A DNA stretch of 64,000 nt, from the NCBI GenBank assembly GCA_026545225.1, contig CM048852.1, positions 14,840,146 through 14,904,145 on the forward strand, written 5' to 3'. Source of the DNA: Cornus controversa. Taxonomy: Eukaryota > Streptophyta > Magnoliopsida > Cornales > Cornaceae. The notes beneath the pieces are model-generated. The model searched no databases. It was not told where the DNA came from and saw only the letters and a list, made by a program, of their open reading frames with translations. Positions 2,832 to 61,819 of this stretch are shown in pieces (positions within the stretch are counted from its first letter, which is position 1; every line of letters starts with the position of its first letter). Both the position numbers and the translations under genes were made by a program.

Positions 2832-2900
2832 ATCCACCCCCCTAAGAGGTCCGACGTCCCCGTCGGCACACTTCCAGTTGAGTCCGACTCTAATACCATT

Positions 2901-3146: not shown

Positions 3147-3240
3147 TGATTCGCTCACCAATGATCCTTTAGTTGACATAAGAAGTAAGACTTCATGTTT
3201 CTGGGTCATGCCTTTCCATTTGAACGCTCTTAGCATGATT

Positions 3241-30419: not shown

Positions 30420-32340
30420 AGTACAAAGATCCTGGTGCTCCAACTATCTCATGCATCATTGGGGAGCACCATATTGATAAAGCTCTTCTTGATTTGGATG
30501 CAAGTGTGAATTTGCTACCCTATTTAGTGTACTTACAATTGGGCTTGGGAGAATTGAAGCCTACATCGGTGGTGTTGCAATTTGTAGACAGATCGACAAA
30601 GCAACCCCATAGGATCATTGAAAATGTGCTCATTAAAGTGGACAAGTTCTACTTTCCAGTTGATTTCATTGTACTTGACACTAAGCCAGTTCACAACCCA
30701 AAGAGGCATATTCTAGTGATCCTTGGTCGACCTTTCTTAGCTACTGCTGATGCTTGCATAAATTGTAGGTTGGGGATCATGGATATTTCATTTGGCAACA
30801 TGAAGGTCAAGCTTAATATTTTCAATGTTGTTGAGAACCCTCCAAATCAGACTGATGTCTTTTTCATAGATTCGGCAGATGTGCCTAAACCTAGAGATGA
30901 AATAGAGGTTAAAGAGAAACAAAGGGAAGAGAATGTGCTAGAAGATCAATTTTCTACAATTGTGGTAAATTCTATATGTGCTAAACCACACAATTCACTT
31001 CAGGGTGAGCAATTTTTTGGAGTATCTGACAACTCCATGCCATGGTATGCAGATGTCATAAATTATTTGGCCACGGGAAAAGTGCTACGAGGTTGGACCA
31101 AGCGAGAGCGTGATAGATTCTTCTCTAAAGTTCATCATTACTTTTGGGAGGATCCGGAGTTATTTAAATATTGTCCAGATCAGATTATTCGGCGGTGTGT
31201 CCCGGATCATGAGTTTCAAGATGTTCTCAAGTTCTGCCATTCCTTAGCATGTGGAGGCCACTTTAGTGCAAGAAAGACAACAGCAAAGGTACTTCAATGT
31301 GGATTCTTCTGGCCTTCTCTGTTTTATGATGCCTATGTTTTTTGTAAAACTTGTGATCGATGTCAAAGATTGGATTCAATGTCAAGATGAGATATGATGC
31401 CAATAACCCCCATTCTGGTGGTTGAGATTTTTGATGTTTGGGAAATTGATTTCATGGGACCCTTTCCGCCCTCTTTTGGCTACGAGTACATTCTGGTTGG
31501 TGTGGATTATGTCTCCAAATGGGTGAAGGCCATTGCAACTCGAATCAATGACCACAAGGTGGTAATCAATTCATGCACAAGAATATTCTTAGTCGATTCA
31601 GAATTCCTTGAGTCTTGATCAGTGATGGTGGTTCTCACTTTTACAATAAATTCTTGAGAGGATTGATTGCTAAGTATTCAGTGACACATAAGGTGGCAAT
31701 GCCTTACCATCCTCAGACAAGTGGGCAAGTGGAGCTGTCCAATCGAAAAATTAAGCATATTCTTGAGAAGACAGTGAGACCGGATAGAAAAGATTGGTCA
31801 TTGCGGTTAAGTGAGGCATTATGGGCGTATCAGACTGCTTACAAGACTCCTATCGGTATGTCGCCATATCGGTTGGTGTATGAAAAAGCATGTCATCTTC
31901 CAGTAGAGATCGAGCACAAGGCACTTTGGGCAATCCAAAAATTCAATTTCGATGCAAAAAGAGCTAGAGAAGAGAGAAAGTTGCAATTGAATGAATTAGA
32001 AGAGTTTAGACGTGATGCTTATGAAAGTTCATAAATTTACAAAGAGAGGACAAAGGCATTCCATGATAGACATATCTCACAGAAGTCCTTTTCTCCAGGT
32101 GATAAAGTGTGGCTCTTCAATTCAAAGCTTCAGTTGTTTCCCGAGAAATTACGTTCAAGATGGGATTGACCATTCCAAGTGATTTCAGTTTTTCCTTATG
32201 GTGCTGTGGAAATTTGGAGTTTTCGAGATAATACTTTGATCAAAGTTAATGGTCAAAGGTTGAAGCATTGTGTAGAAGGATTTGTGCCAACAAGAGACGT
32301 GGAGTCCGTCGACTTGACGGATCCCGTCTATCCGACTTAA
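30420..32340 (+). pseudogene. Element A pol: protease joined directly to integrase
   Basis: The protease runs from about 30,440 to 30,840; its catalytic motif reads DLDAS where element D has DLGAS, then ILGRPFLATADA. About 60 codons later, without any reverse transcriptase or RNase H, the integrase begins (SMPWYADVINYLATGK near 31,035). It has an H2C2 zinc region (FCHSLACGGHF, CKTCDRCQR), a core with [10 protein letters not shown] and DYVSKWVKA, and [16 protein letters not shown] with the catalytic glutamate context (31,700-31,750). Stops fall near 31,388, 31,616, 32,032 and 32,168. Element D shows what is missing: about 1.6 kb. The pol frame family end (LTDPVYPT) is at 32,340. Confidence 0.88.
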
Positions 32341-32582: not shown

Positions 32583-32820
32583 TCTCGGTCGACCTTGAGC
32601 AATAGAGACTCCAAAAATACACGTCCCGGTCGACCTTGGGCGATGGAGGCTCAAATAGGCTTCAGCTGGGGGGATCGATCGCCCATTTAAGGGGGGATCA
32701 ATCGCCCCCATGATTTTGCTACATGGGAGGACCAGCAGAGGGGCGATCGATCACCCCATCCAAGGGGGATTGATCCCCCCAGCCCAAAAGTGGGCTGTCC
32801 GAATTTTTGGGTTATAAATA
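32583..32820 (+). promoter_or_regulatory. Palindrome cluster followed by a TATA-like box, upstream of the third ORF
   Basis: Between the end of pol and the third ORF lie dyads such as GGGGGATCGATCGCCC (32,669), GGGGGGATCAATCGCCCC (32,691), GGGGCGATCGATCACCCC (32,739) and GGGGGATTGATCCCCC (32,764). A pair of GGTCGACCTTG(A/G)G words is at 32,587 and 32,628. TATAAATA follows at 32,813-32,820, about 33 bp after the last dyad. The third ORF starts 410 bp downstream. A promoter role is inferred from the layout, which is repeated in element D. Confidence 0.5.
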
Positions 32821-33228
32821 ACCCCCATCTCTCATCTACTTGCTACTACTTATTATTTGAAGACTTTGGGATCCAATTTGACTCCTACTTCAACCGGGAA
32901 TATATTTTCTTCAATTGGTGATTCTCATACAAGTATTTGTCATTGATCATCATCAACATCGACATCAAAATCGGATTGATCATCACTAGTTCTCAAGAAA
33001 ACTCTTACTTTCTCAAGTTCTTCATCAAAGTAAGTAGAGTTTTTATTTTGCAAAATTATGCCAATCTTTTTGAGGGCTTTTGAAGACCAAGTTTGGGGGA
33101 CATAATTGGTGGATTGAATTGTTCAATTTGGGGTGAAAAAATTGCCGAAAAAAGAGGTTGAAGGAGAAACTTTTATTGTACACACCAAGTGTTTGATTTA
33201 ATTCCTCAACCAAACTTTTCCTATTTCT

Positions 33229-34422
33229 ATGGCACCAAAGAGAGCAAGTCACCAAGGTGCTTCAAGCTCGTGCAATCCTCACCGAGCATGACATGATCCA
33301 ACACCTGTTTCCTCAAGATCTCGCCGAGATGGAATTTATGAGAGATGGCATCTAAGAGCCTTGAATTTTGAAGCGACATTTGACATCGCCGAACTTTATG
33401 CCATATATCCCGAGACATGATAGGGGATTTCTGACATCCGTCGTCGTCGGTCGGCTTTAATTTTTATTCCATTATCTACTACTATATACCTGAGGCTCGT
33501 CAAAGTCTTTTATCAGAACTTAATGCCAAAACCTAACAAGCGGAGTGCACTTATTTCTTCGGTGGATGGAACACGAGTTCAGGTAGATATGTCTTCTATT
33601 GGTATTGCCATGGGCTATCCTCATGAATGCCCAGTTGATTTGACCAATATCTACACTCCTTTACCCGATGATTTGTCGGTGGGTAACTTGGTTGAACATT
33701 TGTGTGCTAACCAATTCTCCAGGCCAAGCCGAGTCATCTATGGTTCCTTGATGCTATTTTGTACAAGAATGTGTGTCCCATTGGACATAAAACCAAGAGG
33801 TGTCAAGAGTTCTTTCGAGCTTTATATGTCATACATTTTGGGCATTGGCTATCATTCCCATAGATTGTCTGGGGCCAAATTGAAAAGTTCTATTCCAGGT
33901 TGTGGCCAAGGTACCGGACAGTGCAAGTGACTAGGAGTTCCATTCCCTACTATCATTCATCAATTACTCATTGCACAGGGATATGCAGTCGATGAGGACG
34001 AGCTTGCCTTTCCATGAGATATTCATTATAGCACACACGACTGGAATTTGAGTCGATCTTATATGTATTAAAGAGTCATTGCTACACCCGGTGAAATATC
34101 TCGATTGGCTCAGGGAGGGGAAGTTGTGGACATACCACCACCGGTGGAGGATCCAGAGGAGATGGAAGTAGAAGAAGAAAATGTCCATGCACAAGCTGGT
34201 GGACATGATTATCATTATTTAGAGGGGCAGATTGTTGGGTTGACCGCCCAGTTTAGCATCTTACAGACTGAGGTTTTCACACAGTTTGGAGCTATGCGGA
34301 CAGAGATGGCGGATCACTTTCGTGAGACTCGCCAGGATCAGCTAGAGATGAGGAGGATGCTGCGTGCATTGATGCGCCAGGCGAACCTGGATCTAGACGC
34401 TCAATCACCAACTCATCCTTGA
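33229..34422 (+). pseudogene. Element A third ORF (Athila-type downstream ORF), broken
   Basis: An ATG at 33,229 opens MAPKRASHQGASSS, resembling the start of the extra ORF found after pol in Athila elements (sometimes called env-like). A stop follows after 20 codons. Further pieces are in other frames: ERWHLRALNFEATF near 33,340, a 135-codon stretch at 33,523-33,930 (GIAMGYPHECPVDL, SLMLFCTRMCVPL), and 34,105-34,422 with an acidic PEEMEVEEENVHA run and a heptad-like segment (LEGQIVGLTAQFSILQTEVF) suggesting a coiled coil. I see no signal peptide or membrane helix, so envelope function is not supported. Its function is unknown. Confidence 0.6.
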
Positions 34423-37509: not shown

Positions 37510-38346
37510 TGTTAACACCCAAAAGTGGCCTAACATGTGGCTGCCACTTTGGTAATGACATGGGTAGAAATAAGTACATACGTGGAAAGAGAAACAGATT
37601 AACTAAGAGATATTAGTGGAATTGGACTCTATCAAGAGTCCATAGAAAATGATGGCTCTAAAGGCTTATAGGAATAGAATCATTGAGGTTTTGGACTTTT
37701 GAAACTTCATCATTGACTTTGGATATGTGTTCGCTCTTAATTAATTAGCCAGGTAGGCTGATTGTTTGCGGGCGTGCCAGAGTCGTGACATTGGCTCGAT
37801 GTAAACGGTTGGTCAACACAAGTATCTCCTTTGGAGGTCGTGTTGGATTAGGCGATTGACTAAGGAGAGAGAATAGGAAACTCCCTATTAAGTTCTTTTC
37901 TCACCTCAATCAAGAGGACTTTAATTGTGTACAAAGAATTGCGAGACTGAATCGTAGGATGGAGGGAGGTAGAAGGACGAAGATATTAAGGAGGGAGGTA
38001 GAAATTGAGGGAGAGATAGACAGACTGACTAATTAGAGGAGGCCAAGAGCAAGAAAAATGGGGAAGATGTAGATCGAGTGAGAAACAGAGCAATATTCAG
38101 GAGAATATTGAGGGAGAGAAACAGATTGCACGTGATGCAATTGTTGAATTGTGATTGTTGGGAACCCTCAAACAGAGCCCTTTTGTATTTATTTATAGTA
38201 AAGAGAAATACATCATTGTTGTTTCTAAATTTACGTTATAAGATAATATCAAAATAAAACAAATTACAATAAAAAGAAATATAAACTAACTATATCCTAT
38301 TGCACCACGACTTCAAATCCCCTTTATTGTAGCCCGTCAGCCTTCA
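37510..38346 (-). repeat. Inverted B-type LTR fragment beside element B
   Basis: Read on the minus strand, about 38,220 to 37,728 matches the downstream half of the element B LTR (38,950-39,398). Shared words include CACTCGATCTACATC, GGCCTCCTCTAAT, TCGCAATTCTTTG, GGAGATACTTGTGTT and CTCTGGCACGCCCGCAA, and it ends GAACA as the B LTR does. The primer site does not follow. Its plus-strand left end (37,510) starts TGTTAACACCCAAA, like the LTR start TGTTAGCACCCAAA of B at 38,351, for only ~15 bp. It appears to be a rearranged or truncated LTR in opposite orientation, forming a large inverted repeat with B. Confidence 0.65.
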
Positions 38347-38350
38347 TTTG

Positions 38351-38529
38351 TGTTAGCACCCAAACTTGGCGCCACTTGGCAGCCAAGGATAAGGTTGTTG
38401 TTAAGGGGCTGACAAAGATTCCATCTTGGAAAAAACTTTAAAGGGGCTGAGACTCTAGTAGGATTGTCCTAAAGGAATAACTGATACCTGTAAAATATGT
38501 ACACATATCCGGTCACCGTTATGGAACAT

Positions 38530-38565
<36 letters not shown>

Positions 38566-39398
38566 TTAGGTGGATGTAATTTAACCTTGCAAGATGGAGC
38601 ATAAGGAGTCTACAATAATTAGGACTCCAAGTAGTTCTACATCTTATGAGAAAGTCGATGGAATAAGAAAACAGAGGATTGTTGGATACAGTTGGTACGA
38701 GTAATCAAGTCACAGCTACATATACGTATATGTAACCTGTACATATCCGTGGATAATCGGTATCGAGCAAGGACTCTTATGGGTTTCAGCCACATTAGAA
38801 AACTTGGTTGAACATGGACTCTACATAAGGAAAGACTGTATGGGATGACTTTGGGCTGAATATGGACTCTTGCATGAAGAAATTGATAAAGTGTTGATAA
38901 TGTATCTCCTTTATATTTCCATAATTACCATGTAATTTAAGATTAAATACAAGTGATGTATTTCTATTTTTCTATAAATAAAAGCAAAAAACTCTGTATT
39001 AGGGGTTCTCACAACCATAATTAACAATTGCATCAAGTGCAATTTATCTCTCTTTCTCAATATTTCCCAGAATATTGATCTATCTCTTACTCGATCTACA
39101 TCTCTCTCACTTTCTTGCTCTCGGCCTCCTCTAATCCATCTGTCAGTCTATTTCTCCTTCCTTCTAAGATTTAGTCTCGCAATTCTTTGCACATAGTTAA
39201 AAGTCCTATTAATTGAGGCAATAAAAGAACTCAATAGGGAATTTCGTATTCTCTCTCCTTAGCCAATTGCCTAATCCAGCACAACCTCCAAAAGAGATAC
39301 TTGTGTTTGATCAAAACTGTTTATATTGAGCTGACACCACGGCTCTGGCACGCCCGCAAGCAATCAGCCTACTTGGCTGATACATTTATAACTGAACA
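38351..39398 (+). repeat. Element B 5' LTR (1,048 bp)
   Basis: It starts TGTTAGCACCC and ends ACTGAACA. It contains a (TA)n run at 38,534-38,561, and a promoter-like CTATAAATAAAAG at about 38,974 followed by a CT-rich leader. The limits are inferred from the TG...CA ends and the following primer site; no paired LTR is available. Confidence 0.7.
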
Positions 39399-39403
39399 TA
39401 TTT

Positions 39404-43120: not shown

Positions 43121-44135
43121 CATCGGTCAAGTAAACTTTCTAAGACAGTTCATCTCTAATTGTGCCGGGAAGATTCACACTTTTTCCCCATTACAGAAAC
43201 TAAAGGCTCAGGAGGATTTTGTGTGGGATGAAAAGTATCAGCGGGCATTCGAAAGAATAAAGGAATACTTAGCCAGCCCACCAGTTGTCATGCCTCCACG
43301 GAAGAAGTGGCCAATAAAACTTTATTTGTCTGTAGTTGAAGAATTAATCGAAAGTATGTTAGTTCAGGATAATGAAGTGGGTAACAAACATGCTATCTAT
43401 TATTTGAGTAGGGTCTTATCCTTGGTCAAGTGTAGATACACTTTAATTGAAAAATTATGTTTGGCCTTATACTTTTTTGCTATAAAACTAAGAGTATACG
43501 TGTTGCCAGTATTGGTCTATGTAATTTGTCAAACCAACCTCATCAGGTACATGTTATCAAGGCCTTTGATCACGGGCTGAATCAGTAAGTGGTCATTGGC
43601 CTTAATAGAGTTCAACTTTGTTCGTGTCCCTCAGAAGTCAATCAAAGAGAAGGTATTGGTAGAGTTTTTAGCAGACCATCCATCAATGGATATCGACCCA
43701 TATGTCTCAGATGAGTTAAAATTAGTAGCCTTGTTCATGGCACTTTGGACATTGATGTCTGATGGGTTTAGTACCAATGACACGGTCGGATCTGGAATAG
43801 TGATTATCTCTCCAAATGGAAGAAAGATCACCTTTTCTTTTTTCTTAGACTTCAAGTGCTCCAACAACCAAGTAGAGTACGAGGCCATGATCATCGACCT
43901 AGAAATCCTATTAGAAATGTCAGTTAGAGATGTACACATAATAGGTGATTCGAACCTCATCAGCCAAATATTTGAGGATTTTCGATGCCTTGCTTGGCAA
44001 TTGAGGTCGTCCCATTCATTGGCCCTTCAATTGGTAGAACAATTCGACTCTATGAAACTGGAATATCGGCTAAGGGAATTCAACAGAGAGGCAAACGATC
44101 TATCCCAGATTGCCTTAGGAGTGAGGGTTCCAGAA
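43120..44135 (+). pseudogene. Element B RNase H and second (archaeal-type) RNase H
   Basis: The connection and first RNase H (RFIGQVNFLRQFISNCAGK, FVWDEKYQRAFERIKEYLA, HAIYYLSRVLSLVKCRYTLIE) run to a stop near 43,578. The second RNase H follows in 43,596-44,135: DGFSTNDTVGSGIVIISPNG, NNQVEYEAMIIDLEILLEM, VHIIGDSNLISQIF and LEYRLREFNREANDLSQIAL. The D...E...D...D residues expected for RNase H can be placed in it. This tandem arrangement is characteristic of Tat elements. The frame runs straight into Cassandra. Confidence 0.87.
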
Positions 44136-44445
44136 TGTGGTGACCCTTGTGGGCGGGTGTGATGTGGGCGGGTGCGAGACACTGGGCGAGCTACCACACT
44201 GGCAGGCTACAGGGTGCTCAATCCCACATCGCCTGGGTAGGAATGGGGAAGTATTATATGTATGATTATCACCCTTCTATGACACAACGCATTTTAAAGC
44301 CGTGATGGTTGTGAACCCACCAGAACTCCACAGTTAAGCGTGCTTAGCTGGGAGTAGTACCAGGATGGGTGACCCCCTGGGAAGTCTCTGGTCCGGGGGA
44401 ACCAAAAGCGGACAATATTGTGTCGGGATAGGGTGGGGCGTTACA
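44136..44445 (+). repeat. Cassandra 5' LTR
   Basis: 310 bp. The four differences from the 3' LTR are G/A in AACGC(A/G)TTTT, T/A in GTGC(T/A)TAGC and CC/TT in GGT(CC/TT)GGGGG. Confidence 0.96.
44290..44399 (+). other. 5S rRNA-derived domain in the Cassandra 5' LTR
   Basis: CCAGAACTCCACAGTTAAGC, then GTGC (box A region, 44,320-44,343), GGAGTAGTACCAGGATGGG (intermediate element and box C) and TGACCCCCTGGGAAGTC match plant 5S rRNA closely. The first third of 5S is more diverged. In Cassandra this part is known to keep a functional pol III promoter. It is not a 5S rRNA gene. Confidence 0.93.
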
Positions 44446-44514
44446 AATGGTATCAGAGCCTAACCCAGCCGGAAGTGTGCCGACGGGGATGTCGGGCCTC
44501 CTAGGGGGGTGGAT

Positions 44515-44824
44515 TGTGGTGACCCTTGTGGGCGGGTGTGATGTGGGCGGGTGCGAGACACTGGGCGAGCTACCACACTGGCAGGCTACAGGGTGCTCAA
44601 TCCCACATCGCCTGGGTAGGAATGGGGAAGTATTATATGTATGATTATCACCCTTCTATGACACAACGCGTTTTAAAGCCGTGATGGTTGTGAACCCACC
44701 AGAACTCCACAGTTAAGCGTGCATAGCTGGGAGTAGTACCAGGATGGGTGACCCCCTGGGAAGTCTCTGGTTTGGGGGAACCAAAAGCGGACAATATTGT
44801 GTCGGGATAGGGTGGGGCGTTACA
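44515..44824 (+). repeat. Cassandra 3' LTR with a second 5S-like domain
   Basis: 310 bp, offset 379 bp from the first LTR; its 5S-like part lies at about 44,669-44,778 with box A at 44,711. The bases after it repeat CAGAA. Confidence 0.96.
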
Positions 44825-45351: not shown

Positions 45352-47479
45352 TGATAGGCGTTGAATGTTACGCATTCTAGCCTCTTAACTTATGTATTTT
45401 ATTCTCTTAGTGATAGATTATTTTGTGATTTTACTTCGTTTTAGTATTTTCAGGGTCTTAATGATTATTTCAGTTAAAACCATGACTTTGGGCTTTTAAA
45501 GAAGACACCCAAGATGGTTAGATGAAGCCTACATCAAGGAAATTCATTCAACCATTTATTTCAACTCAAATCAGCCCAAGGAAGAGGTCCAAGAGAATTA
45601 CAGCTGCTTAAGAAGGTTTCGGGCCTAAAGCCCAAATCTGCGCTTAATACAGTCTTAATCCTGTTTTGGAAAATAGACCAGAAGTGTTATTTTTGAGCCT
45701 CAAATTGACTTAATTTTTATACAAGTTAAACGAAATTCGATTCTACACACTTTTGTATTTCACGAAAATTCCATGAATCGGACTTCTAGTGGGTCAAAAG
45801 TTAGGCCGAACGTCAGCAGGAAAAACCCACCTGATTAGTGCTGCGGGAAAACCTAATTAATTTCTTATTGGATTAGGACTTTGGTGTATTCTCTTGGGGT
45901 ATAAAGTGAAGAATTAGAGGCTGAGTTGAGGAGAGATTGGAGAGTCTGAGAGAGCTTTGGACAGAACAGAAGACATACTTTGCAGATCCATTGGAGAACA
46001 AAGTCATACGCATAATTCATAAAGATGATGCCTTCTTCCTCAATAGTTGAAGCTTCTTCTTCTACCATGAGCGGCTAGTTCATCCAATAGGGTTTTGATG
46101 TAGCCCTAACAAAGCATCAATGGTTTGATTGTTTTAATTATTGGGGACCTTTATATACATGCATAGATTGTGTAATTTAGAGGATTCTTATTATAGAATT
46201 AAGCAATAAAAGTCTTGTAAATTCAATCTCAATGATTTCTTATTTTGTCTTAGATATTTAGTTGTTGTTATTGAACTTAATCTCTGTAAATACCGTGACC
46301 AATTTTGGCCGGTTTATCGATTTTTCATCATTTTCGCTATAAATGCGTTTTGAATGATGTTGTGGATGTTTCGAGGGTGGAAAACATGTTTGGAAGGTTA
46401 ATTTGAGGTTTATAAAAGTTTTCAGGACATTTGGAGAAGTTTGACTTTTTGGTCAAACCGAGGCCCGGGATGCGACTTAAGTGGGCTCGAGAATCCGAAA
46501 ATTTCTCAGAAATATTTATTTTTGAGAATGGCTTAGATGAAATATTTAGAGAGTTAAGCTAGTGGTTTCGAGACCGTAGGAGGTTTTGGAATCGAAAATG
46601 GAGTCCGGGAAGGTTCGTTAAGTGGCCCGGGGATATTTTGGTCTTTTTGCGGCCTAGGGACTTTAAATATCAGATGTGGTAGAGATATTTCATATCTCTA
46701 ATGCTCCAGCAGCCGGCCATGGCTTCTTTCTCTCTCTTCTTTCTCCCTCTTCCTTCTCTCTAGGTTTTGGAGGCCTTTGGGTGTGATTCGTGATCCGCCG
46801 AAGAAGGGAGATACGTAGGGGACGGCTAGGGCTTCCCTTTTAACTGATCAAAGTTGCAGTTTGGCAAGGTTGACATTACTGGGATTTTGAGAAGTGCTTA
46901 GATGGCCTTCATTTTCGAGGTAGGGGTTCTTCTTCTCTTCTAATTGTCGATTCTAGGGTTTTGGGTGAAGAAGAGAGGTGTAGGTTGTGTTTCACATGCT
47001 TTAGGATGGTGAGAGGTGTGGAAAGTTGTGCTTTCTTCTTCTCTAGAGTCCTATCTTTTCACAATTGTGTATATTGTGTTGGTGGTAGCATGTGGGTTTG
47101 AAGTATGTGAATGTAAGAAATTGATACATAGGCATTATGTGCTCAATTTGGTGTATATGTGAAAAATGTGTACCAAGTGTCATATATGTGATTATATGTG
47201 GGAATTTGGTTGTTGAATGCATGTTAGTTCTATGTACTAAAATTATGCATGGAGTGTAGCATGAGTAAAATATGCTAATTTTGAAGTTGTATGCATATGA
47301 GATGATATATGCATGTGTTATACATATATGTGCTATATGTGGTGTGTGGTGGTGAGAAACATGCTTTTTACTTCTTTTTAGTATCAATGAGCATGAAGTA
47401 GTGCATGAAAATAAAATGCCATGTGTTTATGCATTCATATTGCATATGTGGGAAGTTGCGGGAAAAATGACGCAAATGA

Positions 47480-47800
47480 GGTACACGGGGCTTCGGAGTG
47501 GTCCAACCGTGTTGTGAAATGTGGTAAAATTATCCACTATGTATGGCCCTCAGAGTGGACCCGCCATACCAAGGCTTAATGCCTAGGATCGGAGTATGTC
47601 CAATACTAATGACCCCTCGGAGTTGTCCCGGTCATAGGATGATTATCGGAGAATGTCCAAGAATTGTGAGCCTCGGAGTTGTCACCTCACTCTATGGCAA
47701 TCATAAATATTGCTATGGTAGAATGACCTTTCGGAGTTGTCCCGATCATTGGATGGTTATCGGAGGTGTCTAAAGTTACATGATCCTCGGAGCGGGCCAA
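47480..47800 (+). repeat. Alternating CGGAGT...TCC repeat inside the LTR-like insertion
   Basis: About eight imperfect copies of a ~45-bp unit built on CTCGGAGTTGTCC or ATCGGAGTATGTCCAA alternate through this stretch. Two larger units (CCGGTCATAGGATGATTATCGG at 47,629 and CCGATCATTGGATGGTTATCGG-like at 47,742) repeat with a period of about 113 bp. Confidence 0.7.
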
Positions 47801-48526
47801 TCATGTAGGGTATCGGATGAGGACCGAGAGAGAGAGCATTTACCTTTGTTAATGCTTGTATGTTTGAACATGTTATACATGAATCGTAATATGTGCAATT
47901 CTCTTTAATTGTAATTATTGAAGTGTTTGTGAGATTGTGGATGTGGCATGTAGTGTATTCATATGCATTCCATGTAGGTCGGTGTCGAGTTGGCACTTAG
48001 AAGGGTTGGGGAACCTTTACTGAGCCGCAGTGGTGCTCACCCATTTATTATAAACTCTTTTACAGATAAAGCACCGATGACGGATGGGATATGAGTGTCT
48101 AAGTGGAACACTAGTAGTGGTTTTGCTATCTTTTGGATGTTGCACATTTTGTGGCTATCCATGTCGACTTGTGGCATGTGACTTCCTTTTTAGTTGTGGT
48201 TGTACTTTGGACATATGTACTTTTGATGTATGTATTGGATTATAAACTTGTTGGGTGTGGAAAGACAATGGTTTAATTTATGTAATGCCCATGGTGGCAC
48301 TTAATTCATTTTGATGATGTTTCCATTATGAATGGGTTGTGTTCATGAAAGAAATGATTCATTTTGGTGTATGAATTCAATTATGAATGCGATCTTGAGT
48401 GTGAGATTGATGTTAGAACCTTTCATCTATGTTATGGATCATGTATGAGGAGTTCTAGGATGATAGAATATTGATTGGGCTCCAAATGAACCATGTATAG
48501 GGTTGTTGGAGGTCCCGTGGGGAGCA

Positions 48527-48758
48527 TTTCGATCGTGCGAAGTCCCCATTTCGATCGTGCGAAGGGGTGATGATTTATGGTGATTTTTAGGGTCCAGACA
48601 GGAGGAATTTCGATCAATCGAAACCCCCATTTTGATCAATCAAAATATTGCAGGTCTGGGGTCCCGAGAGGGTGAATTCTCACACAATCGAGATTTATTT
48701 CGCACAATCAAGATGCCTATTTCGCACAATCGAGATTGGCATTTCGATCAATCGAAAT
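48527..48758. repeat. Palindrome cluster in the LTR-like insertion
   Basis: About eight dyads: TTTCGATCGTGCGAA (twice), TTTCGATCAATCGAAA (48,608), TTTTGATCAATCAAAA (48,631), CACACAATCGAGA variants, TTTCGCACAATC (twice) and TTTCGATCAATCGAAA (48,742). The core and dyad style match the clusters in elements A and D although this is a different element type. Confidence 0.85.
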
Positions 48759-49812
48759 TACTATTCACAACATTTTCCAAAACTTCATTTCGACGTAATT
48801 TCTTCGTTCTAGATCGGAATTGAGTGTGGTTTTTTTTGAAATTGAGTATTTTTGGATTCTCTATCCAATAGTGTAGCCCTAAGTTTTAGATTCCAAACAC
48901 AGTGAGTTTTTGAGGCCAAAAAGTGAGTAATTCTTAAAAGTGTGGACAAGTAAATGTTCATTAAGGTGTATGATTCGATATAGGGCCCATGGGGATTGGT
49001 TAAGATGGAGTTGCATGCAATTATATGCAAGAATTGAGTTAAGCTTCTACGGTAAATGATGGTAATGAGGGTCTCTTGGGCTAAATAGACAGTTTAACCT
49101 CCGGTTCTCCGATAGTTAGAAATCGGGGCGTTATAGCATGGTATCAAATCTCGATACTATGGTGTGTGTGTAATTGAGATTGTTCACGGGGTTGAGTGAA
49201 CAGGTTCCCACTCTGGATTTGGGGTCGGTCCGAGGGAGTCCCGGCGGTCCGGGTTACGGGCGTGACAATCTCTCCTATTTTCTGTGATCATGAGAGCAAT
49301 TATTACACAATGGTAATCACTGAATATATCATTAAAAGCTTTGATGGATTATGCCGAGAGAAGATGAACCATACTGCACCCTGGATTAGAGTAGTTAGGC
49401 AGATGGCCCATGCCAATCGAAGATAGTCCATGACTTAGCCTTAATCATATGTTATCTTCTTGACGGATGAAGGTGAGCTTGTAGCCACCGACACCACTTA
49501 TGCATGATGTAATCCCCCATAGTTGATTCAATTGACCATTGATTGTGGAGTTAGTGGTGAAGTCAAATACCCTAGATTTCTCTCATATTATCTTCACTTT
49601 CTATTTACTTTGATTTATTTATTTTACTTTTTAATTAGTTTAAAAATCAGATTTCTTCTCTTTATAAATTTAATTAGAATTAATTTCGTATTCCAACTCA
49701 TCAAACCATAATCCCTGAGGTTCGACACCCCTTTCGATAGCCCTATTCTGCAAGGAATTCATTCTATTGTGAAGTGTGGTAATTATAATTTGAGATGCAC
49801 TCACACGAATCA

Positions 49813-50660: not shown

Positions 50661-52640
50661 CTGGTAGAGGAATCTAGTCAGACTACTCGATCTTGTAGAA
50701 AAGATCTTGCAGGAGATGCGAGAACAATTGGAGGAGTCCAACAGGAGAAACGACTTACTCCAGGAGAAGATAGCTCAGCTCACAGGAAAACGACCCAAAA
50801 ATGCCTCACCCCACAGGGAGGCCTCTATGGAACACGATTCCACTCAGGAGGGAGTTCGGGCCACAGAGCAACCGGAGTCCCGAACCACCAGATCTGATGT
50901 CAATTTTGACTCAATAACCAAATGCCTGGAGGAGGTCAATGCAGACATCAAGGACCAGAAGAATCAGAGCCCAACAGATATGGCCACTCAGGTTACCAGC
51001 AAGGTAGTACAGTCCCCTTTTACGGAAGAAATAAGAAAATCTTCGAACCCGAAGAAATTCATACTCCCGAATTTCATCACTTTTGATGGAACAACAGACC
51101 CCGTTGACCATTTCTTCCACGTACAACAGAGAATGACGCTCCATACAGAAGATGAGAGCCTCATATGTAAAATTTTCCCAACTAGCCTCTCGAGAGCCGC
51201 TCTGACTTGGTTCAAGCAACAGCCTTCTGACACTATTCCTAGTTTCACTAAGCTGTGCGAACTTTTCATTGCCCAATATATAGGCAACAGGCGTCAGAAG
51301 AAGACCATCTTTGCCCTTTTCACTATGAGACAGTCAAAGGGAGAAACGTTGAAGTCCTTCTTGACCAGATTTAATTTAGAGATGTCCTTGATCGATGGCT
51401 GCGACCAAGCCGCGACAGTGGAGGCATTCAAGGTAGCAATGATCACAGGTTCCAAGTTTCACTCATCTTTGGTGAGAATAACCCCCCGATCGATAGGAGA
51501 TCTGAACACAAAGGCGCAGGGGTATCTTAGTCTCGAAGAGGATGAGGCGCTTCGTCAGCAGAGATCAGTACTGATCAGCGTGATCAGCGTCAGCGCCCAA
51601 TCCAAAGAGAATGGGTGTAAATCAAAGGGGCAAGGCAGGGCCCACTCAACCCCACCAAAGCCAGAAAAAAGGCCCAAAATCGAGGAGAAAAGCACTCCAC
51701 TGAAGTGCACGCTGGCAAGGCTGTACCAGGAAAACAAGAGCCAGGGCATATTCCGATCCCCTCACCTATCCAAACATCAAACGAGCACAAGGACAAAAGT
51801 AAACATTGCGCCTTCCACCATGATTACAGGCACACTACCAATGAGTGCCGAAATCTAAGGGGCCAGACGGAGGCAATCATAGCCAAGGGGGGCTGACCGA
51901 GTACGTGGTTAAAGGATCTCCCTGGCCAAACTAGGCAATAGATCCCGGAGCACGTAGAAAAACATAACTTAAACCCAGTAAGGACAATCAACACCATACA
52001 TGGTTATTCGACTCACGAAGAGCGAAACATGAGTAGATCTTATATCCGTCAGGCCAAGAAGCTACAGAAGTTAGGAGAGATCAATGTAATCCAAGGTGAG
52101 AAGACCAAAGCCCAAATCACATTCGGAGACCCAAATTTGATGAGGGTGCAACTCCCCCATGAAGACCCAGTAGTTGTCAACCTACTAGTGGCGAATTGCC
52201 AGATAAAGAGAGTGCTCATTGACGCAGGATCAAGTGCTAACATAATGACGCTCGAAGTGTACGAGCAAATAGGAATCGACAATGATCGGATCAAGCCAGC
52301 AGAGGGCCCGTTTGTGGGATTTGATGGAAACAAAGTCGACCCAATTGAAACAATATTACTGTCAGTAACAGCAGCACAGGGGACGCTAAGAGAGCAATTT
52401 GTGATAACCAATGTCCGATCGTCATACAACCTCATCATGGGGAGAGGATGGATATACAGGATGTACGGAGTCCCATCAACACTACATTAGGTAGTGAGAT
52501 GCCTGGCCCCTAATGGGAAAGGAACAATAGACTTGCGCGGTGATCAAGTGGTGGCAAAGATATGTTATTCACTATATATCAAACGAGTGCCCAAAAGAGA
52601 AAATCCCCGTGCTGGGGCATGAACCCAATAGCAATCAAAG
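50661..52640 (+). pseudogene. Fragment C: gag and protease of a second Tat-type element
   Basis: A long frame (50,707-51,858) has a leading coiled-coil-like segment (MREQLEESNRRNDLLQEKIA) and a clear gag core: IRKSSNPKKFILPNFITFDG, DPVDHFFHVQQRM, FPTSLSRAALTWFKQQP, FTKLCELFIAQYI and ETLKSFLTRFNLEMSLI. After a frame change near 51,780, CAFHHDYRHTTNECRNL gives the zinc-knuckle region. The protease (52,029-52,490) has VLIDAGSSANIM, an intact DAGSS active site, and SYNLIMGRGWIYRM. It is cut off at ~52,640 by the tandem array. It sits directly after the pol end of B without an LTR, in the same orientation, and differs in sequence from the B gag and protease. Confidence 0.88.
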
Positions 52641-52648
52641 ACATTTTT

Positions 52649-53488
52649 TTATGTGTTTTCTTTCTAATTTTTTTAGCAAATTTTAGGCATATATGAAGGA
52701 GTTTTTTGCACAAAAAATAATAAAAACTCATTTTCACATTTTTTAGTCTCATTTTTATTCACTTTCCACACATTTAAATAACTTTCCACACATTTAAAGT
52801 ACTTTTACACACACTTAAAAAAAATACTTTTTTATGTTTTTTTCCCAATTTTTTAGGAACTTTTAGGCATATTCGAAGGATGTTTTTGCAAAAAACAAAT
52901 CCTAAAAATATATATTCACATTTTTTAGTCTCATTTTTTTTCACTTTTCACACATTTAAAGTACTTTTCCACACACTTAAAATTAATATTTTTTTTTGTT
53001 TTTTCTTTCCATTTTTTTGGGAACACATAGGCATATTTGAAGGATGTTTTGCACAAAAAATAAAAAAAAATTTATATTCACATTTTTAATCTCATTTTTT
53101 CTCACTTTATTTCTTTTAAAGTATATTTCCACACAATTAAAACAAATATTTTTTTATGTTTTTTTTCTTCCAATTTTTTTACGAAATTTTAGGCATATTT
53201 GAAGAATGTTTTGCACAAAAAATCATAAAAATTTATATTCACATTTTTTAGTCTCATTTTTTATCACATTCCACACATTTAAAGTACTTTTCCACACACA
53301 TAAAACAAATACTTTTTTATGTTTTTTGTTTACAATTTTTTTAGCAACTTTTAGCCATAATTGAAGGATGTTTTTGCACAAAAATTCATAAAAATTTATA
53401 TTCACATTTTTAGTCTCAATTTTATTCACTTTCCACACATGTAAATTACTTTTCCACAAACTCAAAACAAATATTCTTTTATGTTTTT
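52649..53488. repeat. AT-rich tandem array, ~162-bp unit, about 5 copies
   Basis: Each unit contains TTTTAGGCATAT (52,681; 52,861; ~53,024; 53,187; ~53,348), then GAAGGATGTTTTTGCACAAA, TTCACATTTTTTAGTCTCAT and ACTTTTCCACACACTTAAAA. Spacings are about 180, 163, 163 and 161 bp; the first unit has an extra CTTTCCACACATTTAAA copy. It is truncated on the right by element D. It may be the 3' tandem region of a Tat-like element or a dispersed satellite; I cannot tell which. Confidence 0.9.
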
Positions 53489-54868
53489 TGATAAGTGTTC
53501 AATACTATGCATTTGAACCCTCTTTATTGCATATGTTAGTCTCGTTATTACGTTTATCGAGGTACGTTTACGGTATTTTTGTGTTTTTGATGTATTGTAG
53601 GTTTTGTACCAAAAGGAGCAATGTTTGAGGCCATTTGCAATTGAAGAGTAGAATTCAGAAATGAAGCTAAGGCATCTCGATCAATTGAGATCTTGATTGA
53701 TCGAGACATGAATTTTGATTAATTGAAATCTCGAACAATCGAGATTCCAATCTCGATCAATCGAGATTCTACCGACCCACTTGCCCACTTGCTCACCTAC
53801 TCTCCCACTTGCAACAAAATCCACCTTTTTGCATGACTTGGAGGGATTTTCTGACTTGAAGAAGACACATGGAGATATTATTGATTTAGTTGATATATAT
53901 ATTGCTATATATATATACATGGTGGGTCCCAAGGAGGAAAAAGTAGCCAAATATGCACAAAAGGAGCCATTTTCTCTCATACAACATACCATACATTAGA
54001 GAATTTCGGGAGAGGAGAGGGAGAAGCTGAACAAGACCTTGAAGCTTCATTTTCTCCATCAATGGAAGAGTGTAAGGCTGCCATGATCAACTAACTTCTC
54101 TACTAGGGTGTGGGGAAACCCCTAGCCATGTAAACTTGTTCATTTTTGTAGCATTACTTGAGATTTGTATTTAAATGTTGATTACTTAGTCTAGTGATGA
54201 TGTACACTTATACATTTCTTATATATATTCATATGATGTTATTTTTATTCTTGTCTTAGAGTAGAATCCATCTTATGAATGCACAACACTTGCATCTTCT
54301 ACAAAAAGTGTAAGTGATGGCTAGGTAATGGTATTTAAATTGAATGTGTTGTTCTTACTTGTATAAACCATGCCATGATGAGGTAGTTTGGATGCATTTA
54401 GGTTTACTTAGAGAGTAGGGTAATTAGTTAGGTTGAAGAACTATGCTTGTTGAAGATGGGTTATGATAGGTTGGAAAACACATTGATATTTTGATATGTT
54501 ATTGAGGTCACAAGCCTAATGACATTGTTGGACATTTAATTTTATAAATCCCAAGCTTGCTACATTTATGGACATGTAAATGGCTAGTGGTGGAAACCAC
54601 CCCTAGTTCTCTCTCCCAACTTACAACTCTTTAAATTTAGTGTTTTTATATTTCATGCAATAGTTTTAAAACAAAACTCAAAACCTTGTTTTTAGAATTA
54701 AAGTGGAATTAATCTTTCTTCAAGACAATTAACAACTAGTCCTCATGGGATCGATACCCTCTATATAGAACCGTATCTACAAAGATTCGTGCTCTTGCGA
54801 GTGGTTAAATTATATTTTGAAAAAGGGCAAAAATAAGCTTACAATTACATCCACGTTTAGCCACACCA
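53489..54868 (+). repeat. Element D 5' LTR (about 1,380 bp)
   Basis: It starts TGATAAGTGTTCAAT and ends AGCCACACCA, six bases before the primer site. It has a palindrome cluster at 53,674-53,768 and a TATA-rich segment at 53,895-53,921. The right limit is inferred from the TG...CA form and the primer site. Confidence 0.82.
53674..53768. repeat. Palindrome cluster in the element D LTR
   Basis: Five near-contiguous dyads: ATCTCGATCAATTGAGAT (53,674), TCTTGATTGATCGAGA (53,691), TTTTGATTAATTGAAA (53,713), ATCTCGAACAATCGAGAT (53,728) and AATCTCGATCAATCGAGATT (53,749). The last has 9-bp arms around a CA centre. The TATA-rich stretch lies about 125 bp downstream. Confidence 0.88.
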
Positions 54869-54874
54869 AAATTT

Positions 54875-54892
54875 TGGCGCCATTGCCGAGGA
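54875..54892 (+). promoter_or_regulatory. Element D primer binding site, tRNA-Asp type
   Basis: TGGCGCCATTGCCGAGGA matches the Athila tRNA-Asp site TGGCGCCGTTGCCGGGGA with two changes. Confidence 0.85.
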
Positions 54893-55139: not shown

Positions 55140-56470
55140 ATGCTAGGTAGACGGTCATTGTCACTTCCTTTGCTTCTGTGTAATATTGAACTTGAACGAA
55201 CACTTAGACAACGTAGAGGAACCTCTAGGGACCCTATATTGCCTAGGACTGAAAACATGGAACCAAATGATGGACAACCTCTCGGACTACCTCCATTTAA
55301 TCATGAACAACAACCTCCACCTCCTCCTCCTCAAGGAGAATTGCTTATGGACTTTTATCTTCCGACTACATTTGAAGTACCTTCATGTATTCAATTTCCT
55401 AATGGAGTGGCAAATCAATTTGAAATAAAGTCCTCCACCATCAATCTTCTTAATAGCTTCTATGGTCTCCCAAATGAAGATCCATACCGGCATTTAGATT
55501 ACTTCCTTTCTGTGTGTTCCACCAATCGGGTACCACAGTTTACGGAGGATGATCTAAAGCTTCGTATGTTTCCATTCTCCCTAAAGGATAAAGCTAGAAG
55601 TTGGTTTAATTCCTTAGAACCTAACTCAATCCATTCTTGGGTGGAGATGCAAATTGAATTCTTAAAAAAATACTTCCCAATGGGAAAGATGAGTGCAATC
55701 ACCAGATTCACCCAAATTGATCAAGAACAATTTCATGAGACTTGGGAGAGATTAAAAGATCTTCTTAAATCTTGTCTGCACCATGCTGCCCCAAAATGGC
55801 AGCTAGTGCAAAGCTTTTATGATGGGGTAAGTGAGCAACATAGGCAAATGATAGATTCTGCTTGTGGAGGTGGATACCTTTTGAAAAGCCCAGATGATGC
55901 ATGGAAACTTTTTCAAACCCAAAGTAATAATTCAGCTCAACGCACCTCCACTAGAAAAGGGAAATCCACCCAACCTTGTAGAGGAGTGCATGAGATTTCA
56001 AGGGTAGTTGAGGTTGCCATGCAAGTAGAAACCTTAACCTGAAAAATGGACCAAATTATGAAAAATGGGCTGCCTACTCCAAGCCAACCTGTTCAAAATC
56101 AGGAAGGGTGTTCGTTTTGCTATAGCACTTCACATTATGTGTGAGATTGTCCTATTGCCGGTCAATCTCCCGATTATGCTCAAGAGCAAGCGAATGCCGT
56201 GTATTCTAAACAGATTAATGATCCATATTCAAATACCTAAAATCCTGGTTACAAGAATCATCCAGCATTTTCATGGAAATCTCAAGAACCAAGTCCCTCT
56301 TTCCAAGGGCAAAATTCCTTTAATTCCCAATCTCAACAGCCTCAATATAGGCTAACTCCTCAACCTTACCATCAAAGATCCAACTACCAACAACCACCAC
56401 CTCCTCCAAGAAGCCAAGGCTTTGAGGAAAGAGTGATAAGCAATCTTGAGGCTAATACTCGCTTGTTGCA
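55140..56470 (+). pseudogene. Element D gag, broken
   Basis: A 300-codon frame (55,140-56,042) contains ERTLRQRRGTSRDPI, a proline run (QQPPPPPPQGE), EDPYRHLDYFLSVCST, RMFPFSLKDKARSWFNSLEP and HETWERLKDLLKSCLHH, the same layout as in elements A and E. After a stop at 56,040 the knuckle CSFCYSTSHYV-DC appears near 56,115 with a stop inside, and a glutamine-proline rich tail runs to about 56,470. It forms capsid and nucleocapsid in intact relatives. Confidence 0.9.
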
Positions 56471-57731: not shown

Positions 57732-59350
57732 ATGCTTGATGTCACGACCGTCATGGATTTGCCTAAATGGAGAGTTCCGAGAGAATCCTTGCCTCCTTTG
57801 TCTAATACTTCCCAAACTCCTTCTCTAATTTTCCCACCACAACTTGAGCTCAAGCCTTTACCGGCTACACTCAAGTATATTTTCTTGGGCTCTAATGAAA
57901 CCCTTCCAGTCATTATTGCTTCCAATCTCACCAATGATCAAGAGATGGAACTTCTAAAAGTGCTAAAAGAGCACAAGGAAGCAATAGGATAGAGTATGGC
58001 AGATCTTAAGGGAATAGATCCTTCTATTTGTATGCACCGCATACACTTGGAAGAAGATGCAAAGACCTCAAGAGAGGCACAACGTCGATTAAATCCAAAT
58101 ATGAAGGACGTTGTAATGAAGGAGGTTGTGAAGTTGCTAGATGCAGGAATCATTTACCCCATCTCAGATAGTAAGTGGGTTAGTCCCACTTAAGTGGTTC
58201 CTAAGAAGTCTGGTATTACGGTGCAACCAAATGATAAGGGTGAATTGGTTCCCCAACGCACCACCATGGGATTGAGAGTTTGCATAGATTATCGGAAACT
58301 AAATTCAGCAACTCGAAAAGATCACTTCCCTCTTCCATTTATTGATCAAATCTTAGAGAGATTAGCTGGTCAAAGTTTTTATTGCTTCTTAGATGGATAT
58401 TCTGGCTATAATCAGATTGCTATAGACCCGAGGGACCAAGAGAAAACCACCTTTACATGTCCTTTCAGCACATTCGCTTATAGACGCATGCCCTTTGGGT
58501 TGTGCAATGTATGATGTCTATCTTTTTGGACATGGTGAAAAATTTCTTGGAAGTGTTCATAGATGATTTCTCCGTATTTAGACCTTCATTCAAATCATGC
58601 CTCCAAAATCTATCCCGTGTTCTCACACGATGTCAAGAAACCAATCTAATCCTCAGTTGGGAAAAGAGCCATTTTATGGTTCAAGAGGGCATTGTCCTAG
58701 GGCACATTGTGTCTAAGAGAGGAATTGAGGCTGACAAAGCCAAGGTTGAACTTATTTCCAAACTTCCTCCACCGTCAACGGTGAGAGAGATTCGTTCATT
58801 CCTTGGGCATACGGGCTTTTATCGCCGTTTCATCAAAGACTTTAGCAAGATTTCTCAGCCTTTGTGTCACCTTCTTGAAAAAGAGTCTTGTTTTACCTTT
58901 GATGAAGCGTGCCTTAACGCGTTTGAAAAGCTCCGCACCATGCTTACAACCGCTCCAATTCTCATCCCTCCAAATTGGGCTCTCCCATTTGAGATCATGT
59001 GTGATGCATCCGATTATGCTATGGGTGCGGTCTTAGGGCAACGGGTAGACAAATTACCACATGTTATCTATTATGCAAGTAAAACCCTTTTCGAGGCTCA
59101 AATCAATTATACCACAACAGAAAAGGAGTTGTTTGCGGTAATATTTGCCTTGGACAAATTTCGAACTTATCTATTAGGTTCCAAGGTCATTGTCTATTCG
59201 GACCATGCTGCCCTCCGACATCTTTTGGCCAAAAAGGATACTAAGCCTAGATTGATCCGGTGGATACTCTTGTTGCAAGAGTTTAATTTTGAGATTAGAG
59301 ACAAAAAGGGAACCGAAAATGTGGTGGCTGACCACCTCTCTAGAATTCTT
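57732..59350 (+). pseudogene. Element D reverse transcriptase and RNase H, broken
   Basis: The spacer and fingers begin LPPLSNTSQTPS ... HKEAIG, a stop, MADLKGIDPSICMHRI, then a stop after SKWVSPT. The palm has GLRVCIDYRKLNSATRKDHFPLP and FLDGYSGYNQIAIDP. At 58,511, after MPFGLCN, about 20 nt are missing and the frame shifts. The catalytic FIDDFSVF follows (58,558), then the thumb and RNase [46 protein letters not shown] and VADHLSRI, with D, E and D catalytic residues visible. The RNase H half is open; the RT is not functional because of two stops and the deletion. Confidence 0.92.
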
Positions 59351-59379
59351 GTTGAATCCCTCAATGATTCCATTCCAGT

Positions 59380-60726
59380 TTGTGAATCCTTCCCGGATGA
59401 ACAACTTTTTGTAATCTCTCAAGAGAGTATCCCTTGGTATGCGGACATTGTCAACTACTTGGCAACCGGCAAAATACCGTCTTCTTGGACCAAGCAAGAG
59501 AAGGATCGGTTTTTTTCCCAATCACGATCATATTATTGGGACGATCCTCAATTGTTCAAATATTGTCCGGATCAAATAATCCAAAAATGTGTACCCAACA
59601 GTGAATTTCAAAGCATTCTAAAATTTTGTCAGACGCTTGCTTGTGGGGGACACTTTAGTGCTAAAAAAATCGCAGCAAAGATTATTTAATGCGGATTTTT
59701 CTGCCCAACACTTCATCGGGATGCATACTCATTTTGTCACTTGTGTGAGCGATGTCAGTGCCTTGGCGCGATGTCTCGAAAGGACATGATGCCTCTCAAC
59801 CCTATTCTTATTGTTGAGATATTTGATGTGTGGGGCATCGACTTCATGGGACCTTTTCCACCATCTACTGGTCATGAGTACATACTTGTGGCGGTGGACT
59901 ACATTTCTAAATAGATAGAGGCCGTTGCTACCAAAACCAATTACCACGTAGTCGTGGTTAAGTTCATTCAAGCTAATATCTTTAGCCGTTTTGGTATGCC
60001 TCGGGCCCTCATCAGTGACGGAGGTAAACATTTCTGTAATCGGTTCCTTTGAACTTGCTTACCAAATACTCTGTCACACACAAAGTAGCCACCCCATACC
60101 ATCCTCAAACTAGTGGACAAGTGGAAGTATCCAATAGGGAGATAAAGAACATCCTTGAGAAAACAGTTCGGCTTGACCGGAAAGATTGGTCATTACGACT
60201 AAATGATGCATTATGGGCTTACCAAACTGCTTATAAGACTCCCATTGGAACATCACCTTACCGGTTGGTTTATGGTAAAGCATGCCATCTTCCGGTTGAA
60301 TTGGAGCACAAAGCTATGTGGGCCACACAAACGTTCAATTTTGACATGCAAAAGGTCGGCTCTAATCGAAAAAATGAATTGGAAGAATTGCGACATGACG
60401 CGTATGAGAATGCTAAAATCTATAAGGCAAAGTCTAAAACATTTCATGATCACAATATTCGAGTCAAAACATTTTCTCTGGGATGGAAAGTATGGTTGTA
60501 CAACTCACACCTCCGTTTGTTTCCCAAAAAACTTCGCTCCCATTGGGATGGTCCATTTTTGGTTAATTCCGTTGCTCCCCACGGAGCGGTGGAATTGAAG
60601 GACTTGAAAGATGGAACGTTGTTCAAAGTGAACGGGCAGCACTTAAAACTGTGCGTGGATGACCAAGTTACCATGGAGTATGTGGATGTCGTCAATTTGA
60701 CGGATCCCGTTTATTTTGACTCATGA
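59380..60726 (+). pseudogene. Element D integrase, broken
   Basis: It starts [16 protein letters not shown] and [13 protein letters not shown], with the H2C2 zinc region ([11 protein letters not shown]) ended by a stop at ~59,687. CHLCERCQ follows near 59,742. The core has [16 protein letters not shown], a stop at VDYISK*IEA (59,911), RALISDGGKHF with the second aspartate, then a frame change at ~60,050. [20 protein letters not shown] and EVSNREIK hold the catalytic glutamate. The C-terminus (FDGPFLV-like and [11 protein letters not shown]) ends LTDPVYFDS at 60,726. The last 225 codons are open. Confidence 0.92.
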
Positions 60727-60888: not shown

Positions 60889-61169
60889 AATCTCGATTAA
60901 TCGAAACAAGGATCTCGATCAATTGAGATCTTGATTAATTGAGATTTTGGTCTCGATTGATTGAAATAATGCAGAGATTTTGGAACATTTTGCAAAGTGC
61001 AAAGTACCGAGAGGTTTTTTTTTTATAGAACTTCGATAGGTACTCGATCAATCGAAATCTCGATCAATCGAGATCCCATTCTCGATCAATCGAGATCTTA
61101 ATTAATCGAGATGTGCATCTCGATCAATCGAGATTGCCACGCTGACTGCACGTGTTTCACTTATAAATT
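60889..61169 (+). promoter_or_regulatory. Palindrome cluster and TATA-like box upstream of the element D third ORF
   Basis: About nine dyads lie between 60,889 and 61,134. Three are exact TCTCGATCAATCGAGA (within 61,057-61,074; at 61,080-61,095; within 61,117-61,134), with 7-bp arms around a CA centre; the others are variants (GATCTCGATCAATTGAGATC, TCTCGATTGATTGAAA). TATAAATT follows at 61,162-61,169, 28 bp after the last dyad, then a C/T-rich leader. The layout mirrors element A at 32,583-32,820. Promoter function is inferred. Confidence 0.55.
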
Positions 61170-61792
61170 CGAAACCGTCGGCCCCCTCTCATTTCTCCAT
61201 TTCTTCTCGCGACCATCCGACTTCTTCCTCCAGTCCGAGAGCTCCAACGCCATCCCCGATCACCTTCCAACCTTTTTTGATCATTCTCGGCCCTCCGCTT
61301 TCGTTCTACGTTGTCCGAGCCTTCCGCATATTCACGCGAGTTCGTATCTTCGCGGCTGCGTGTTGGGTTTCGTTTTCTTGCACTGTTCATCATCTTCGCC
61401 TTGAGATAAGTTGATACATGCTTTATTTTGTTTGATTTGCCGCTATTTTTGTTAGTTTACCGACTTAATAAGCATGGATAGATGATGATGGATTGGAGTG
61501 GCTTGCGTTCGCTACGTTCATAATGGGAACTTGCGGGTTATGGGGATAGGTGTGCGAGAGCGGAATGAGAGATATATTTGTGCGGGTCGTGTTAGCTTTC
61601 GAGTTGCATTGTGCATTACATGGGTTGCATGTTTTTGATTCCTCGTAGGCCTAATCAAGTGGATTCGAGCATGTTTTGGCGTGCATGTCTTGGCATCATG
61701 GACTAGAACTTCTTTTTTTATTTATTTTAGTATTCATTTTATTTTATTTTTATTTACTTTATTTTTGGAATAAGTGCAGACTGGTCCGGATT
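61170..61792 (+). other. Element D leader between the TATA-like box and the third ORF
   Basis: About 620 bp, unusually CG-rich for this window (for example TCTCGCGACCATCCGACTTC near 61,204). A 97-codon chance frame at 61,111-61,404 begins inside the palindromes and has no domain. It looks like a transcribed leader or a leader with an intron, not a gene. Confidence 0.45.
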
Positions 61793-61819
61793 ATGGCGCG
61801 TGTGAAGAATCCCACCGGT
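61793..61819 (+). pseudogene. Start of the element D third ORF, cut by element E
   Basis: An ATG opens MARVKNPTG and the next codon is the TGA of the element E LTR start. The position, after integrase and a long leader, equals the third ORF of element A (MAPKRASHQ at 33,229). The remainder must lie right of element E. Confidence 0.6.

Follow-up and report, generated by a model that had tools for sequence, protein, structure and literature searches.

The spacer between integrase and the third open reading frame (ORF3) in two retrotransposon families of Cornus controversa, here termed D and A, probably acts as a promoter from which RNA polymerase II transcribes ORF3, with palindromic dyads serving as shared cis-regulatory sites. 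The sequence of these parts, their order and spacing, their conservation across sampled copies and the sharing of dyads between sites were observed directly. An internal promoter unit for ORF3 had been proposed in the initial annotation, and several of its parts stood. Each family showed the order of dyads, TATA-like box, leader and ORF3 in its 30 sampled copies, the TATA core of A was kept in all 30 while its immediate flanks changed, and a splice donor, a candidate acceptor and the ORF3 ATG followed in both families. The proposal was weakened in D, where a TATA box exactly as in the window (the whole stretch of 64,000 nucleotides) occurred in 1/30 copies and the most common form, TTACATATT, is by our judgement a poor TATA box. 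The dyads, promoter and splice signals, the LTR and the ORF3 starts described below are all on the forward strand.

The window contains nested Ty3/gypsy elements. The 5' LTR of D (53489..54867, ends judged by eye) begins with TGATAAGTG, and directly 5' of it lies a tandem array with a 162-bp unit (52640-53490). The primer binding site TGGCGCC, a putative match to tRNA-Asp, was located just after the LTR at 54875, and the same motif was present in the window at 28402 and 63347. For Calypso and Diaspora, tRNA-Asp is named (PMC1142308). Pfam searches placed gag of D at 55140-56042 and RT/RNase H at 58502-59689. The protease gave a weak Pfam match under the cutoff, and the frame ending at 60726 (60049-60726) had no match in the Pfam search. 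The integrase stretch of D was recognised by alignment, with 59251-60714 of D matching 30866-32331 of A; the frame 30494-31390 of element A contains Integrase_H2C2 (Pfam). No integrase relatives were found in a scan of IMG/VR. D has RT/RNase H, the integrase stretch and then ORF3, the last seen in copy L023, and this is the order of the Athila lineage. Because RT/RNase H precedes the integrase stretch, D belongs to Ty3/gypsy and is alike to the Sireviruses but not a member of them.

ORF3 of D starts with MARVKN at 61793..61819, and its ATG was present in 25/30 sampled copies. Only the first codons are found in the window, where the frame is truncated because the LTR of another element begins at 61820. 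In copy L023, ORF3 has an open frame that starts at its ATG and runs through to where the retrieved sequence stops (L023:2533-3312, 260 aa). This product matched PF20167, a putative plant transposon protein, with 3e-7, which is below the curated cutoff of Pfam. The protein database search with the ORF3 of D gave a single relative.

About nine dyads, three of them exact, had been noticed between integrase and ORF3 of D, and this count was confirmed. The array (60891..61133) comprises nine GATC-centred dyads of 16 bp in two groups, 60891-60966 and 61042-61133. They start at 60891, 60913, 60929, 60951, 61042, 61058, 61080, 61096 and 61118, with TCTCGATCAATCGAGA exact at 61058, 61080 and 61118, and are spaced within each group by 16 bp (abutting) or 22 bp (leaving a 6-bp gap). 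With up to three mismatches allowed on both strands, by which many dyads are counted twice, 28 matches were obtained in the window compared to 0.34 expected, and none of 100 shuffles reached 28. Across the assembly from which the window was taken (772 Mb, 61 contigs), the exact 16-mer had 8063 + 8217 = 16,280 occurrences and the reversed control had none. A scan of IMG/VR for the exact dyad gave single matches in 14 contigs; we estimate that chance alone would yield as many for a 16-mer in so large a collection, and they were not used. The integrase-to-ORF3 region was compared across copies. The sample comprised 30 loci including the window copy, out of 40 scored among 2153 candidates. All nine dyads were present in order in 30/30 copies, two single dyads having a 1-bp insertion, and the distance of 28 bp from the last dyad to the box, claimed earlier for the window, was the same in all 30.

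Arm pairing was examined in 268 D dyads, after the two of 270 with the 1-bp insertion had been dropped. Perfect pairing over seven positions was found in 96 of the 268. The 253 mismatched arm pairs comprised 118 CpG-type transitions, 116 C-A or A-A pairs and 19 others. The C-A or A-A pairs were situated at the two outer positions; dyads 1, 4 and 5 accounted for 113 of these, all fixed, and dyad 7 for three. To judge from the sequences, the mismatches are a mark of methylation decay and not of compensatory change. The observed/expected ratio of CpG was 1.97 for the dyad array of the D spacer and 1.87 for that of the D LTR, compared to 0.18 downstream of the dyads in this LTR and 0.65 in the A array.

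The TATA-like box of D was confirmed at 61162..61169, where the window copy reads TATAAATT. Among the 30 copies, TTACATATT was found in 21 (as TACATATT), TTATATATT in eight (as TATATATT) and TTATAAATT only in the window copy, so that a canonical TATAWA was present in 9/30. The sequence TATAAATT was rejected as the defining D box, being private to the window copy among the 30. We judge the commonest form, TTACATATT, to be a weak TATA box. It is carried by the only near-identical pair of D copies, L026 and L031 (0.6% apart), and the most recent D copies seen are therefore without a canonical TATA. Copies with TATATATT tended to be more divergent, with a median mean distance of 0.084 compared to 0.070 and overlapping ranges. 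A G-box, CACGTG (61149..61154), precedes the box by 7 bp in 22/30 copies. As an observation of its own, GTTTC and GAAAC flank the D box within 61154-61175, weakly resembling the palindrome that surrounds the box of A (described below).

A plant initiator consensus is YTCANTYY. An initiator-like CTCATTTC at 61188..61195 fitted it in 28/30 D copies, and the distance from the box to the initiator A was 29 bp in 27 copies and 30 bp in three. From initiator and donor, an untranslated leader exon of an ORF3 transcript was predicted at 61191..61405. The donor at 61406 is GTAAGT in 25/30 copies and ATAAGT in the window copy. The predicted leader intron (61406..61779) ends with the acceptor TGCAG at 61775-61779, whose CAG was present in 28/30 copies. 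At least 90% of this intron was aligned in 29/30 copies, which would be expected were the template of reverse transcription left unspliced there. L039 is disrupted past the leader and lacks the donor, and its intron alignment (87%) may be forced. Since the sampled copies share descent, selection cannot be read from conservation of the entire spacer alone. Of the 895 8-mers of the region, 476 were as well retained as the initiator, which thus equals the median, and 66 were as well retained as the box position when two letters were allowed at one position of the box.

Element A had been described as showing the same layout with other dyad arms and a gap of about 33 bp, and this was found to be correct. 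Its dyads (about 32669..32780) have GATCRATC cores with G-rich and C-rich arms (GGGG..CCCC), and the TATA box TATAAATA lies at 32813-32820, approximately 33 bp after the last dyad. The spacers of D and A had no BLAST match to one another. Thirty A loci including the window copy were sampled out of 40 scored among 1477 candidates; L071 is absent from the listing of the A dyads. In 30/30 A copies, TATAWA was present in the segment that separates the last dyad from the start region, compared to 8.8% of shuffled segments. A GTAAGT donor at 33030 and a candidate acceptor AG at 33188-33189 were each found in 27/30 copies, and the ORF3 ATG at 33229-33231 in 25/30.

The TATA box of A is enclosed by a perfect palindrome, GGGTTATAAATAACCC (32809..32824). 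Three exact symmetric flank forms, GGGT-TATAAATA-ACCC, GGTC-TATAAA-GACC and GGCC-TATAAA-GGCC, accounted for 17/30 copies, and the rest were one-sided or further variants. Divergence was 0.13 in the TATA core, compared to 0.23 in the 6 bp to the left and 0.43 in the 6 bp to the right, with gaps counted as differences. Hexamers retained at least as well as the TATA position numbered 353 of 665 overall and 12 of 64 nearby. The case for the A box rests on the contrast with its immediate flanks, because aligned retention at this position is no better than the region median. The pairing of the two flanks within copies scored 83, compared to 44.1 between copies (sd 7.4), and the largest of 2000 permutations reached 69. 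With the 16 distinct forms, the score was 31 compared to 19.2, a value reached in 27 of 2000 permutations. Among the dyads of A, the arms of dy3 formed 160 pairs compared to 148.2 (sd 2.8), which none of 3000 permutations reached, and two of 3000 did so for the 18 distinct forms. No arm covariation was detected at dy1, dy2 and dy4 by the permutation test on the 30 sampled copies. For dy1 to dy4, 0, 1, 1 and 3 of the 30 copies were dropped, respectively, and the permutations for dyad arms and TATA flanks ignore shared descent. General covariation of dyad arms was rejected as proof of structure or dimer binding, as it was seen only for dy3 of the four A dyads and for the TATA flanks.

Dyads also occur outside the spacers, at two sites absent from the initial annotation, the D LTR and an insertion at 48608-48757. 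Five dyads of the D kind are situated in D's own 5' LTR (53675..53766), and the TATA box of this LTR, TATATATATATA (53906..53917), follows about 140 bp 3' of them. The D LTR sample held 30 loci of 40 scored among 2418 candidates and includes both probable LTRs of the window's D. The dyad array and TATATATA were present in all 30, with five dyads in 19 copies, six in 10 (one more 22-bp unit) and four in one. L082 is located at about 75712 in window coordinates, 11.7 kb past the window end, in the same orientation as the D LTR of the window. Within the sample of 30, CTCTCATACAACATACC is found only in L082 and in that LTR, and L082 is probably D's own 3' LTR. The two members of this probable pair differ by one 22-bp dyad unit, with six dyads in L082 and five in the 5' LTR, a difference that would reflect a change of array length during or after insertion. 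GATCRATC was absent from the A LTRs of the window.

Two relatives were obtained from the genome-wide dyad list. L105 is a related LTR with dyads, a TATA run and CTCTCAT. L106:1-380 is a diverged relative of the D spacer with a larger dyad array, which is followed after 32 bp by TATTTAAA and then by CCCTCTCATTTT. The dyads TTTCGATCAATCGAAA and their relatives at 48608..48757 have a core near-identical to that of D and slightly different arms. The insertion that contains them (about 46286-49265) is of another kind, lies within an A-type LTR and had no BLAST match to D or A. By inspection, no TATA box was seen after the TTTCGATCAATCGAAA dyads. Repeats of TTTCGATCGTGCGAA lie just 5' of them.

If the spacer is an internal promoter, the dyads would be upstream regulatory sites bound symmetrically by a dimeric factor, and the TATA-like box together with the initiator about 29 bp further on would set the start of ORF3 transcription. 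The first exon would be an untranslated leader reaching to GTAAGT, and the short intron removed by the predicted splicing would end just 5' of the ORF3 ATG. For family A, the TATA box appears to be built into a palindrome whose arms were exchanged symmetrically. The LTR and the spacer of D carry the same dyads, suggesting shared control. As the LTR dyads are likewise upstream of a TATA box, one factor would switch full-length RNA and ORF3 mRNA together. Such co-regulation by dyads would not be general, because the A LTRs of the window lack them. More tentatively, one palindromic code may tie the LTR and ORF3 promoters of D, with a single factor setting both as Tas does in foamy viruses; this extension, drawn by analogy, is possible but rather doubtful. 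The factor may be a host protein exploited by several retrotransposon families, because the insertion of another kind has nearly the same dyad and the 16-mer occurs more than 16,000 times in the genome. Alternatively, the shared factor could be the ORF3 product itself.

The dyads might instead act as RNA, hairpins having been the other option of the initial annotation. The array would form one long hairpin in the full-length transcript and would either feed the production of small RNAs or be tolerated by it, with the ORF3 start just downstream so that its mRNA escapes. Predicted folds were indeed more stable than those of shuffled sequences, with -105 kcal/mol for D compared to -60.4 (sd 4.35, z -10.3), -113.1 for A compared to -85.2 (z -5.5), -44.8 for the D LTR compared to -23.7 (z -6.4) and -150.8 for L106 compared to -109.8 (z -7.4). 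The two dyad groups of D pair together at long range in the predicted fold. A small-RNA role has also been proposed for the palindromes of maize Sireviruses, and an excess of smRNA at the clusters was reported (PMC10760457, citing Bousios 2016). However, arrays of palindromes tend to fold in this way anyway, and stability is therefore no separate evidence. Furthermore, the dyad cores are kept beyond the needs of pairing, with GATCRATC in two families, and arm covariation was restricted to one of four A dyads (dy3). Overall, an RNA role of the dyads appears unlikely. We consider it very unlikely that the dyads are a neutral by-product without a role in transcription, arising by slippage or template switching in reverse transcription with quasi-palindrome correction of the arms. 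Their copy number does vary, partly by the whole 22-bp unit (four to six in the sampled D LTRs and more in L106), and templating could account for the symmetric swaps at dy3 and around the TATA box of A. Yet this origin is at odds with the fixed order of nine dyads in 30/30 sampled D copies. It is likewise at odds with a core that unlike families share with the insertion of another kind, and with the position of the dyads, which precede a TATA box in the D LTR and a TATA-like box in the D spacer.

Alternatively, all ORF3 expression could start in the LTR, with the full-length RNA spliced to spacer acceptors, in which case the TATA-like box would be due to chance. Acceptors upstream of env were predicted for BAGY2 and Athila (PMC2829016). 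In D, a T-run followed by AG precedes the second dyad group in 26/30 copies, and CAG lies just 5' of the ATG in 28/30. Against this route, TATAWA was retained in 30/30 A copies despite changing flanks, and a promoter of the ENV ORF is stated for Athila6A (PMC4977677). Such a route has no need of a local donor paired with an acceptor further downstream, and expression from the LTR only is regarded as quite unlikely. Core promoter signals precede ORF3 in both families, with TATAWA in 30/30 A copies and, in D, the initiator-like motif in 28/30 but a canonical TATAWA in only 9/30.

The initial annotation knew of no description of a unit of palindromes and TATA box, but close ones have been published (PMC2829016, PMC4977677). 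Sireviruses, which are Ty1/copia elements, carry element-specific palindrome clusters (RMs) upstream of the LTR TATA box, in CpG islands (Bousios et al. 2010, PMC2829016). In ENV-bearing Sireviruses, RMs were also found upstream of ENV in 77/79 linker copies, and ENV-less elements were without these further copies (PMC2829016). On this ground the authors supported an internal ENV promoter as a hypothesis, although its conclusive identification was not possible for them (PMC2829016). D resembles the Sireviruses in having palindromes upstream of the LTR TATA (30/30 sampled), unlike the A LTRs of the window, and both D and A have palindromes upstream of an ENV-like gene, ORF3. The RM core is CGG-CCG, except for ACAATCGATTGT in Tnd-1 (PMC2829016), whereas the core in D and A is GATCRATC or a one-step variant. 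D and A are Ty3/gypsy elements, and the A array of the window is not CpG-rich. While the Sirevirus ENV promoter was left unpinned, the dyads described here are followed by a TATA-like box, an initiator-like motif, a donor, an acceptor and an ATG.

For Athila6A of Arabidopsis, the authors report having defined ORFs, an intron and start sites, and they refer to an ENV ORF promoter (Panda et al. 2016, PMC4977677). The likeness extends to the Athila lineage, the ENV ORF promoter and the start sites with an intron (PMC4977677). This likeness is one of description, and the accessible part of the promoter account mentions no palindromes (PMC4977677). In foamy viruses, the LTR and an internal promoter both answer to Tas (PMC3798896). 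Two promoters with one trans-factor are comparable by analogy only, as the foamy virus factor is virus-encoded and the internal promoter is in env (PMC3798896), whereas the factor here is hypothetical and the promoter would be in the spacer. Grande is likened by title only, for an accessory gene of the 3' internal region that is transcribed by its own promoter (Gomez-Orte 2013, cited in PMC11963269). Palindromes before TATA and ENV in Sireviruses and the ENV ORF promoter of Athila6A were thus known already (PMC2829016, PMC4977677). No description of palindrome clusters at an Athila internal promoter was recognised in the literature searched, a scope that took in few subscription papers. New are the sharing of dyads between the LTR and the spacer of an Athila-type element and, in A, a TATA box set within a palindrome.

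If the interpretation is correct, palindrome-marked LTR and internal promoters would occur in two retrotransposon superfamilies, in Sireviruses and in Athila, and in both they would go with the presence of a third or env-like gene. The question of how such genes come to be expressed in plant elements, and for what reason, would then be accessible to experiment. At their short length, spacer, dyads and box lend themselves to reporter constructs, and the many copies would provide methylation, small-RNA and start-site profiles from one data set. Apart from the elements discussed above, the window holds an inverted repeat at 37725-39401, with arms of about 500-550 bp that are 73% alike. A direct duplication of 313 bp (98%) is located at 44133-44824, and its unit is related, in inverted orientation, to 2715-3147.
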